A model generated the notes under the pieces. It searched no databases. It saw nothing but the letters and a program-made list of their open reading frames with translations, and was not told where the DNA came from. A stretch of 64,000 nt of DNA from Ischnura elegans (taxonomy: Eukaryota > Arthropoda > Insecta > Odonata > Coenagrionidae), in the NCBI RefSeq assembly GCF_921293095.1, contig NC_060257.1, forward strand, positions 92,989,449 through 93,053,448, given 5' to 3'. Shown piece by piece: positions 672-35,463 of the stretch (position 1 is the stretch's first letter; each line of letters starts with the position of its first letter). A program made the translations under genes and the position numbers.

Positions 672-18864
<18,193 letters not shown>

Positions 18865-30213: not shown

Positions 30214-30455
30214 TACACCAATATCATGTACATAAACAAATACCATCAGTTCACCACTAAAATCAATGTACACACATCTGTCTTTCATAATTTTAGGAAG
30301 ACCTAACGCAACAATTTTTTTCATCTTGTGCCATTCCATAGCACTCTGCTTTAATCCATAAAGAGTTTTAGTCAGTTTCCACATTTTGTCTTCCCATTAT
30401 GATTTAAAAAACTCTGGCCGTTCTATGTACACAGTTTCTTCCAAAGGAGGATTTA

Positions 30456-31186
30456 GGGTCATTCCATGTCAAATCAACCAATATTTTGACCAAAGGACAC
30501 CCACCGACTCGGATTTTCATGAAACTTGCCAAGGTCATACATTCTGGTATAATTAGAATTTGTGTGCAATTTTAGCCCCCAATTTTCAATTGTTGATGAA
30601 ATATGAGCAATTGAAATTTGGGCGTGACCCATAAAGTGCCGCAACGTGCAACACACGGTGATTTTTATTTTCATCCATAACTCCATTCCTGTGAAATGAA
30701 AAGGCAAGATTTTTTTTTCCAAAGATAAGTGATTCATATTGATCCCACGATTATCATTAAATATTCACTGCATGAAGTAATTCAGCTGCAAAAAAATAAA
30801 GTTTACAAAAAAATCCTGCTTGTACCATTTTCCATTGTCAGCATCCACAGGGAAAGGCCATGCGAATACAGACTCATGGTTCGGTTTAAAGTAATCATTA
30901 ATGTATGAGCAAAGATCCTGATGAAAAAAAATCGTGAGTCCGGCGTTCCTTTGAGTAAAATTAAATACTCATTCATGGTCACGGGAAAAAAAGGCTCTTT
31001 TTCAAGGCACATAGATATTACTCGATTTAGAGGAGATATAACCTTATACTCATGATAAAACAATATTGGAGCATGCATTACCTCACTATAGCGTATGCTA
31101 CTGTCTCTTAGAGTAGGAAACACATAAGCAATCATGTGAATGTACTCTCCAACGTACTGCTAATTTCGTGCTTTCAGGACTATTCC
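30456..31186. repeat. Left terminal inverted repeat of the long-TIR element
   Basis: 731 bp, matching the reverse complement of 34,206-34,928 nearly throughout. It includes an 87-codon minus frame with a plus-strand partner in the other arm, which is only the palindromic image. Similarity ends abruptly after ACTATTC. Confidence 0.9.
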
Positions 31187-31519
31187 TACTAGGCTATCTC
31201 TTCCATGGGTAATGGGCAACTGAATAGTATGGGTATAAAATGTAAAGGCAGAAGAGAGCCATCAGAATGTTTTCTTCAATTACAGTCTAAATGAAGTTAA
31301 TTAATTTCTCAGTCATATGGTGCTGCCTTAGTGATATCCTGGTTGAATTTCAGACTAAGTATCTCATGTTTGTGTGGCTGATAGCCAGGCTTACATTTTA
31401 ACATCTCATTCGTATTGAGGTCTGTCTGGCCATGTCAGAGATACCATTGTGCTGTGATGGCAAATAACTCAGTTCTGAATTTCACAAAAAGAGCTACACA
31501 AACACAGCCCAAACTTTTT

Positions 31520-33700
31520 ATTTCAAAGAACTACCAGAAGTGGACAGAGATTTAATTGCCCTGCAGTGCAATATTCCTATTTCATCATTGTTAACTCTGT
31601 GCTCTCATCATCTTCATTGCTACTTAAAGAAATACGAGTGTTATCAGCTTAATTGCAGTACCCCTTTGCCATTCATAAAGGTCCTGTTAGGAAATTTCTT
31701 AGGACCATACCTCTAAAAAAGTGTAGGTCTGTGAGAGCAGCGGGCATCCTGGTGAAGCCTGGAGGAAAATTTTGCTGTAGGTGTGACAAGATTTCCAAAA
31801 TTTGTAATAGCGAGGTTGTTTCCAATGGCATTGATGAAAGCAATCAAGAACTTACATCAGTTCAGTCTTTGGTGGAAAGCGATAGAAAATAAGAAGAAGC
31901 AAACTGTAGCTCGGAGGCTTTAGACTACTCTCCTTTGAAATAATTTTTTTGTCTTCTCACAGTAGACACTCATATGGATAAGGAAAGATAACACAAGCTA
32001 AGCATCACCTTGTATCTAAAGTGTCTGGTGCATTAAAATTTGTGAATCCATCCCTGGAAAATCTAAGTGGTGATGAAGATGAGAGTGACAGTCAACTCAT
32101 AAAGCATAGGGCAGCTAACTTGGATGACTTGCTGACTAAAATTAAGAATAAATTGCCAACAGATAGCTGGCAGGGTAAACTTCAAATGTTGACCCTGGCC
32201 CCTTTATCTTGGTCTAGGAAAAGGATTATGAGTGAATTTTATGTTTCAGACTACACTGTGAGACAGGCAAAAAAGTTCCTTCATGAGAAGGGAATATCTG
32301 CTATGCCATCACCATGTGCTGGGAAACCACTTCCAAACTCCACAGTAGAGCTGGTGAAAAATTTTTATGAGTTTGACAAAAATTCTAGGCAGATTCCGGG
32401 AGCCAAAGATAAATTTAGTGTGGGTAAGAATGAGTATATGCAGAAGAGGTTATTTTATGTAACCTCAAGGAACTTTATGTGTTATTCGAAGAGCAATATC
32501 CACAAGAAAAAACTGGGTTCTCCAAATTTTGTTCACTTCAGCCAAAATGTTGTGTGATGGCTGGTGCTTCTGGGACTCATTCAGTTTGTGTTTGTGTCAT
32601 ACATCAAAATGTGAAATTTCTAATTAGTGCCTTGCAATTGAAGGAAACATATAATGAGTTGATGGATATCATTATTCCTAAATTTTGTGAATACGACCCC
32701 CTTCTGATACAGTGAAACATAGGCAGTGGGTTTCCACTGATAGAACAGAACTTCAGTTGTTTACATCATCCATTAATGAACTCTTGGACATTCTATGCCT
32801 CAAAATGAATAAACTGATGCCACATTATTACGTCACTAAAGAACAACCCTAAAAAATTTTTCAAAATAAGCAAAGAAACCCTCAGTCATGAAAAGGCTGT
32901 TATCATAATGGATTTTAGTGAAAAGTTTTCATTTTTAATTCAGGATGAAGTTCAAAGTTATCACTGGACCAATCTATCATGCACCATACACCCTTGCTTG
33001 ATTTACCTGAAGAAAGATAGTACTCTCACCACCTCATCTCATTGCTTCATATCTGATGACCTTAGCCATGATGTGGCCTTTGTTATGGAAGTGCAACGCC
33101 ACCTGATTAAATTTTTAAAGAGAAATTACCTTTGACCCAAGAGGTTCAGTGCTTCACAGATGGATGTGCGGGGCAATATAAAAACGGCAAGTCTTTTATA
33201 AATTTTTGCCATCATTATAATGACTATGGAATGAATGCAACCCAGTCTTTTTTTTCCACAAGCCATGGAAAGTCCTCTTGTGATGGTATAGGTGGTACCA
33301 TTGAACGAATGGCGCAGCAAATAACAAACAGCTGCAGGATGTGTGAATTTTGTAGAGATAAAATGAAAAACATCAACATCAACATAACATTTAGTCCAGT
33401 GATGTGGCTTGGTCACCTAGTAAACTTCTTGAAAGATCCACCAAGGCAAAAACAATTCCAGGCACAAGAAACTTCCATCATTTTGTGCCTTTATCGAATA
33501 GAAAAGTCACTGCAAAGTTCACTGGGTTGGATGACGAGTACAGCATTATATTTGATTTTTGTTCGGAAACAGTGGATTTCCCAAATAATTTGGCTGTTGG
33601 TTCATGTGCAGCTTGTATTTACAGCAAGCAGTATGGTACATTGGACCAGTGGAAGCTCTCAATCATGAAGGAGGTGATATTTCAGTTAAATTCATGACAC
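31520..33700 (+). pseudogene. Decayed transposase-like gene of the long-TIR element
   Basis: Several plus-strand frames belong together. At 31,535-31,800 a Cys/His-rich region (TLCSHHLHCYLKKYECYQLN, then VKPGGKFCCRCDKI in another frame) looks like a zinc-binding N-terminus. At 32,021-32,557 a 178-codon frame contains QGKLQMLTLAPLSWSRKRIM and SDYTVRQAKKFLHEKGI. At 33,132-33,400 there is a frame with FTDGCAGQYKNGKSFINFCH then SHGKSSCDGIGGTIERMAQQ, whose D-G and D-G-GG residues suggest an RNase H-fold (DDE-type) catalytic core. Proteins with this pattern are, from memory, common but uncharacterised in invertebrate genomes. Frameshifts and stops mean this copy is inactive. Confidence 0.65.
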
Positions 33701-34205
33701 TTAATGGGCCCTCACCTTCATTCTCTTGGCCTTAGAGATATGATGTTTGCTATGTGCCGCTAGGACACACATTGTGTGTGCTTAATTCTCCTGCAACCAC
33801 GAGCTATGGGAGGTCATACTACTTCTTGAGGAAGTGGCCAACATTCAAAAAAAATATTTAGACTTTGTGAAAAACACATCTTAGAATCTGGTCAGCCAGT
33901 TAAAAAGAGGAGGCTCACTTTCAAACCAAACAGTAGGGTTGTTAATTTAATTTTACTATTTTTACCTAAATTTCCAATGATATAGAATGACCACATGAAA
34001 CATTGATAGGGTGAAGTACCTGAGAAATTTCTCAATTCAAATGATTTGATGACGGTTCCGTTTGACATTTGATTATGTACATTCCTGTGATGTCAATACA
34101 TCTGGATATGAAATGAATCTGGTCTTTGGACACAGATTAAAATGAATGTAGGATGTAATAGTGTACCATGGATCATGCAGTTTTTTAAAATTAAAACTCC
34201 CTCTG

Positions 34206-34928
34206 CTCGAATAGTTCAGATAGCACGAAATTAGCAGTACGAGGGGGAGTACATTCACATGATTGCTTATGTGTTTCCTACTGTAAGAGCCAGTAGCATA
34301 CGCTATAGTGAGGTAATGCATGCTCCCATATTGTTTAATCCTGAGTATAAGGTTATATCTCCTCTAAATCGAGTAATATCTATGTGCATTGAAAAAGAGC
34401 CTTTTTTCCCGTGACCATGAATGAGTATTTTATTTTACTAAAAGGAACGCCGGACTCACGATTTTTTTTCATCAGGACCTTTGCTCATACATTAATGATT
34501 ACTTTAAACCGAACCATGAGTCTGTATTCGCATGGCCTTTCCCTGTGGATGCTGACAATGAAAAATGGTACAAGCAGGATTTTTTTGTAAACTTTATTTT
34601 TTTGCAGCTAAATTACTTCATGCAGTGAATATTTAATGATAATCGTGGGATCATTATGAATCACTTATATTTAGAAAAAAAAATCTTGCCTTTTCATCTC
34701 ACAGGAATGGAGTTATGGATGAAAATAAAAATCACCGTGTGTTGCACGTTGCGGCACTTTAGGGGTCACGCCCAAATTTCAATTGCTCATATTTCATCAA
34801 CAATTGAAAATTTGGGGCTAAAATTGCACACAATTTTTAATTATACCAGAATGTATGACCTTGGCAAGTTTCATGAAAATCCGAGTCGGTGGGTGTCATG
34901 GCCTGGTTGATTTGAAATGGAATGACCC
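34206..34928. repeat. Right terminal inverted repeat of the long-TIR element
   Basis: 723 bp, the inverted partner of 30,456-31,186. The two arms differ by scattered substitutions and small indels, giving an approximate age for the copy. Confidence 0.9.
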
Positions 34929-34983
34929 TTTATGTAACCAGTATGAACATCTAAGTGGTAAATTTCCCATCCTTTTAACACTG

Positions 34984-35463
34984 CTACTGCACAGTGGCAT
35001 GACTAGGAATATGCTTTGGGGGGAGGGGGAATAGGATGGCCTGAAGTGGTCCCGGTCTCCCCCCCAGGAGTTAACCACATTTTTTCATGGAGACAAAATT
35101 GTTAAGTCGCTGCATTGTTAAGACTCAAAATATAAATAGCAACCATCGTATTGCGAAGCCCAGCACCTGCTGTTCTCAGAAGGTGAGCACAATTTTGAAA
35201 AAAATTTAACGCTTTCCTGGCGAATGATGTGGGAACCAGGAAAGGGGGGGAGACCGGGAAAATTTTTGAAAAATGACATGCCTGAAATACATTTTACATC
35301 ATTTTGACACTTAAAATTTAACTTAAAGCAGATGGAATTATTATCAGTCAAAACTAGACAATATCTTAAAATATTTTTTTTTTGTTTCTCTGAGGCTTTG
35401 GGGGGGCGGGGGGGATATATCCCCCTCATCCCTTCCCCCCATAGTTATGCCACTGTTACTGCA
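34984..35463. mobile_element. hAT-type MITE (CAGTGGCAT family) inserted in the copia element
   Basis: The element 34,992-35,455 (464 bp) begins CAGTGGCATGACTAGGAATA and ends TAGTTATGCCACTG. The flanks CTACTGCA and TTACTGCA match at 7 of 8 bases, a hAT-size duplication. Copia coding sequence resumes on both sides. The interior piece 35,063-35,230 is an inverted copy of 37,795-37,970, and the ends match the element at 17,676. Confidence 0.85.

Follow-up and report, generated by a model that had tools for sequence, protein, structure and literature searches.

The element in the window

The window, a stretch of 64,000 nucleotides of Ischnura elegans (C12:92989449-93053448, genome of 1.72 Gb in 110 contigs), contains a DNA transposon of 4,473 bp at 30456-34928 with the outer ends GGGTCATTCC and GGAATGACCC. 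Its terminal inverted repeats (TIRs) are 94.8% identical, and the very long arms given for this place in the preliminary description were recovered (Table 1). When the element and one TTTA are removed, the flanks join as a continuous minus-strand frame, DVHTGYINPPLEETVYIERPEFF (read by eye), presumably the reverse-transcriptase block of a copia-like remnant. The restored frame upholds the earlier reading of TTTA as target site duplication (TSD). The element, a cut-and-paste DNA transposon inserted in an older copia-like retrotransposon, is broken and dead. A 464-bp element (34992-35455) lies in the same remnant; its ends are of CAGTGGCATAACTA type, its 8-bp duplication (CTACTGCA/TTACTGCA) contains one mismatch, and we take it to be a non-autonomous element of hAT type.

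Table 1 Features of the transposon; positions refer to the window
Feature	Position	Strand	Basis and remarks
Left TSD, TTTA	30452..30455	.	flank reading, TSD tally
Left (5') TIR, 730 bp, tip type A (GGGTCATTCCATGTC...)	30456..31185	+	arm alignment; coding signal none seen
Transposase N-terminal Cys/His block, remnant	31438..31889	+	31438-31668 aligns to L069 residues 11-87
Cys/His block beyond 31668	to 31889	+	reading frame, alignment of sister copy L009
Transposase remnant, helix-turn-helix-like segment (roughly 32168-32300)	31982..32557	+	frame, L069 alignment
Transposase remnant, GTHSVCVC..HQN block	32434..32715	+	frame, L069 alignment
Transposase remnant, first candidate catalytic Asp (codon 32911-32913, MDFSEK)	32818..33135	+	frame, L069 alignment
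Transposase remnant, candidate Asp 2 (33159-33161, FTDG) and Asp 3 (33282-33284, CDGIGG)	33111..33668	+	frame, L069 alignment
C-terminal transposase remnant, two frames	33419..33834	+	protein alignment
Right (3') TIR, 720 bp, tip type B (GGGTCATTCCATTTC..., read inward)	34209..34928	-	arm alignment
Right TSD, TTTA	34929..34932	.	flank reading, TSD tally

Open frames in the arms were considered as genes and rejected. In a comparison of 28 arms from 14 elements (without L012, which duplicates L011), stops interrupt the 118-aa frame of the window's left arm by residue 38-86 in all 27 other arms. Synonymous changes made up 421 of 1,513 single changes between subfamilies in the arm frame, a share not above that of all other five frames. 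Minor letters per column amounted to 1.47, 0.96 and 1.45 for codon positions 1, 2 and 3, position 2 being the lower one, against 1.30 outside the frame.

Remnants of a transposase gene and intact relatives

Open reading frames and their translations revealed no single surviving frame for the gene. The remnant is collinear with L069, an unbroken 874-aa frame elsewhere in the genome: five ordered pieces aligned with an E-value of 4e-114, plus an N-terminal piece. The decayed transposase-like gene reported earlier is confirmed by this collinearity, together with its Cys/His cluster, which aligns with the N-terminal part of the intact protein, and its block with FTDGCAGQYKN and SHGKSSCDGIGG, both located inside the frame of the second and third Asp.

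A protein search with a 303-aa piece of copy L027 gave 153 genome matches, 130 of 1527 candidates being scored; identity to this piece ran from 100% to 41% among the matches listed. The 874-aa frame of L069 is intact at two further places with about 100% identity (three in all, C1:39110742, C2:964603 and C2:115685621), and further stop-free frames comprise 878 aa (two places, 58% identical to L069), 887 aa (44%) and 638 aa (48%). On G000:C19:1276243-1281906, two equal-scoring stop-free 878-aa relatives face opposite ways, separated by about 0.5 kb. Families with unbroken frames share 43-47% identity with the 303-aa piece of the window family (L069 43%), and a whole gene was not found among the fetched copies of the window family. 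The intact copies expected elsewhere thus exist in related families, but not among the fetched members of the family itself. In the 4 kb fetched around the L069 gene, no long inverted repeat was found as its own ends.

A more distant relative, L071, encodes 705 aa and aligns with L069 over 589 aa at 26% identity (E 5e-52). Both proteins are collinear with the window gene and have the same three Asp and the same SHGK..DGxGG block. L071 is located on a 4-kb contig (JAAEPJ010000558.1, G+C 0.345) of a metagenome-assembled genome (MAG) binned as bacterial; one match was found in this MAG, and we infer that the contig is a eukaryotic contaminant of the bacterial bin. The sequence GGGCAATTCCAT at 288-299, two mismatches from the first 12 bases of the window element, is present as complement at 3812-3823, inverted around the gene. 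These repeats may, as a guess, be the ends of the L071 element; they are flanked by AGAA and ATTT and show no TSD. Repeated GGTGT(C/T)GGAC(A/G)TACA motifs occur on both sides of the gene. Searches found no relatives in viral contigs, where 7 pattern matches looked chance-like on translation. None of 69 prokaryote-genome stretches matching the protein pattern was confirmed as a relative, and of three stretches with the DNA motif, L071 is a true relative while L070 and L072 look like chance.

Candidate catalytic residues are spaced D528-84-D613-40-D654 in L069 and D380-79-D460-40-D501 in L071, which gives the common pattern Asp-(79-84)-Asp-(40)-Asp (FSDG..SHGK..DGxGG). Forty residues likewise separate the second and third Asp in the window and in L027; the window has the first Asp as well. 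L069, L071 and L027 agree at further acids, among them D578, D579 and E685; one of these could be catalytic in place of D528, D613 or D654, and the triad chosen is therefore provisional. The order and spacing of the residues agree with a predicted RNase H fold and DDD chemistry. The RNase H-type core proposed at the outset is thus consistent with the residues, whereas the structure predicted for the catalytic region of L071 with two window pieces (pLDDT 33.7) was uninformative on the fold. Above threshold, Pfam, NCBIfam, PHROGs and PDB sequences yielded no named family and no transposase or RNase H profile. Sub-threshold hits of the helix-turn-helix-like segment of L069 were HTH_11 of Pfam (E 0.0016, 18.7 bits, cutoff 25), MRP-L20 (E 0.0005, 20.7 bits, cutoff 30.4), phrog_38247 (E 0.00069) and a DnaD-like phrog (E 0.0015). 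As the profile libraries used gave no match above threshold, routine annotation may leave such genes without a name. Literature searches with peptide motifs gave no paper, and the papers listed for the end sequences were unrelated by their titles; the element may belong to a poorly described family, as supposed at the outset.

Family members and their target sites

The arm search of the whole genome gave 878 first-look candidates, of which 40 were scored. Together with the window, 33 loci fetched around scored arms made up 34 records (8 shorter overlapping loci were omitted), 16 with two ends and 18 with a single end. A 22-base end pattern had 248 exact matches in the genome, the reversed control none. 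About 100 of the 248 matches were listed, and among these were 22 facing pairs within about 10 kb: ten pairs span 4.0-4.5 kb and five 0.76-1.25 kb, thus short derivatives exist.

Direct 4-bp duplications border 13 of the 16 two-ended copies, at a chance of about 1 in 256 each; in L028 the duplication reads 6 bp owing to ATATAT. L011 and L012 share their flanks, hence 12 of 15 independent sites have a TSD (TTTA, TAGC, AGTG, ACAC, TTAA, AGTA, TACC, AAAT, ATAT, AATA, ATAG, ATAT). The family target is constant in its length of 4 bp and varied in sequence, with no preference for TTTA. Duplications of 4 bp across the family were correctly foreseen, whereas TTTA as common target has to be abandoned: the copies share the length, the letters differ. 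The two-ended copies without TSD are L009, L033 (left end truncated) and L038. The flanks of L009 are inverted copies of each other over at least 120 bp.

L009 (G000:C1:125174900-125180100) sits in a palindrome and its arms are 99.6% identical; the palindrome is either a true inversion event or an assembly artefact. Contig C14 (18.8 Mb, 1.1% of the genome) holds at least 62 of the listed matches to the 303-aa piece, some of which recur every about 4.87 kb, which suggests a tandem amplification of the element. On contig C15, three arms lie about 4,835 bp apart, and a 4.9-kb stretch is 99.9% alike one step on.

Gene decay and probable movement in trans

Over the 303-aa stretch, L027 and the window differ at 22/285, 21/285 and 26/283 sites of codon positions 1, 2 and 3. 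Since the three positions differ almost equally, the gene of the window family has been little maintained. A slight third-position excess in several copies, e.g. 0.069, 0.073 and 0.100 in L010, leaves room for some past constraint.

Six copies (L025, L027, L028, L029, L035 and L038) are alike, with left arms of 95.6-99.7% identity. Nothing in them matches element positions 973-2565, a stretch replaced by about 1.3 kb of different sequence. They lack the first Asp, as the protein match starts at residue 568. In L022 and L030, which together with L023 are mutually 98.2-98.9% alike, protein residues 516-701 are missing and with them all three Asp. Both gene-deficient groups occupy different sites with TSDs, L038 excepted. 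Uninterrupted frames of 305-319 aa with 97-100% identity to L027 occur at 8 places. Lacking catalytic blocks, yet present at different sites with TSDs, the two multiplied subfamilies appear to have moved in trans. The enzyme driving the window family was probably supplied by a relative whose gene is intact; L069-type enzymes may recognise these ends.

Two tips and inverted interiors

Fourteen two-ended elements were oriented by their gene (L012, the duplicate of L011, and the truncated L033 were dropped). The two ends are unequal in their outermost 40 bp. At position 13, tip A carries G (A in L038) and tip B carries T; in columns 25-37, tip A has additional letters and tip B differs from it. 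One tip of each type was present in 13 of the 14 elements, L009 having two alike. Tip A lies 5' of the gene in eight (window, L010, L011, L015, L027, L028, L029, L038) and 3' of it in five (L022, L023, L025, L030, L035). In these five, the arm identity to L027 as well as to the window is higher crossed than same-side. The interior is therefore inverted relative to the tips in 5 of 14 copies, a new observation.

Fifteen diagnostic columns, worth about three independent features, were picked on L027, L028 and L029. L025 and L035, which differ from L027 in the gene at 8/912 and 7/911 positions, have swapped tips and an unswapped innermost diagnostic column, a pattern that recombination inside the arms would produce. 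L025 (TSD TACC) and L035 (ATAT) reside at different sites, so the flipped form also seems able to transpose.

A proposed history of the family

The protein encoded by the ancestral gene would have measured about 870 aa and combined Cys/His blocks with a helix-turn-helix-like segment and a predicted DDD core; it may have bound the conserved end GGGTCATTCCATNTCAAATCAA. This enzyme would excise the element and join it to a 4-bp staggered target without fixed sequence. The window family would no longer keep its own gene; copies, contributing the ends only, would travel in trans, driven by an enzyme from another source, probably a related family. The long arms would recombine homologously and so flip the interior, leaving the gene to face either way relative to two slightly unequal tips. 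As a whole, a dead cut-and-paste element of a trans-mobilised family, with arm recombination inverting the interior, is the best explanation, and we hold it with good confidence.

The link between a decayed insertion and unbroken relatives in the same genome means that the transposase could be tested directly. Flipped interiors between fixed unequal tips present a natural experiment on the role of long inverted arms: these seem to permit inversion of an element's central part while it stays mobile, a point relevant to the question why arms reach hundreds of bases in some transposons.

Affiliation and comparison with known elements

The nearest known kind, as suggested earlier, is the Sola superfamily, reportedly treated by Bao et al. 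in 2009; the 4-bp duplications and long arms are compatible with it, as are the DDD-like residues. Judged against descriptions of Sola rather than Sola proteins, membership of the window element has roughly an even chance. Long arms are found outside Sola too, e.g. in Galileo of the P superfamily, and one of the other described superfamilies (P, hAT, MuDR, Kolobok, Dada, CMC, Ginger, Academ) might be considered, which we regard as quite improbable. CMC elements (CACTA/Chapaev) have CAC-type termini, unlike the GGGTCATTCC ends of the window family, and piggyBac is set apart by TTAA, seen in one of the 12 independent TSDs here. TSDs of 4 bp with free sequence and the lack of a Pfam match above threshold likewise argue against these superfamilies. 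For P, hAT, MuDR, Kolobok and Dada, PMC9587614 gives a C/DxxH motif between the second and the last acid; CHHH in L069 alone fits, but the motif is not conserved (CHHY in L027, YPWQ in L071). Kolobok shares TIRs, a DDD/E transposase and a 4-bp TSD with our element, yet is TTAA-specific and has C/DxxH according to the same source (PMC9587614). P elements differ by TSDs of 7-8 bp (PMC5199201) and by C/DxxH (PMC9587614).

A practically negligible probability is assigned to a large inverted duplication around a gene, with arms that are not transposon ends and a TTTA match by chance. L009 does lie in a palindrome with inverted flanks, but direct repeats of 4 bp flank 13 of the 16 two-ended copies, a single end sequence recurs at 248 places and the element is inserted inside a copia-like frame, all of which speaks against it. 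A DDD/DDE superfamily of its own, with only the 4-bp duplication and the long arms in common with Sola, is possible though rather unlikely. It would accord with the absence of library matches above threshold and with TSDs that are not mainly the AT-rich AWWT targets described for Sola2 elements in PMC3627910: 3 of the 12 independent TSDs fit (AAAT, ATAT, ATAT), a comparison that concerns Sola2 only. Against it, the DDD-like residues, TSD, size and TIR length all fall within the Sola description in PMC10741241. More doubtful still is the fuller version in which the lineage of L069, L071 and the window is a superfamily of its own, with two unequal tips on otherwise alike arms, a recombination-flipped interior and both arrangements transposing.

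We return to the affiliation with Sola, whose elements have a DDD transposase, a 4-bp TSD, a size of 2-9 kb and TIRs of 11-1124 bp (PMC10741241); the superfamily is also described in PMC4455052. Duplications of 4 bp at 13 of 16 two-ended copies agree with this, TIRs of 730/720 bp and a size of 4,473 bp lie inside the ranges, and the candidate residues D528/D613/D654 of L069, matching D380/D460/D501 of L071, may represent the DDD. The window element is an ordinary Sola-like mobile element, dead here, with one uncommon feature, the invertible interior. Galileo likewise has long arms. It shows inversions by ectopic recombination too, but chromosomal ones that arise between copies (PMC4168063).
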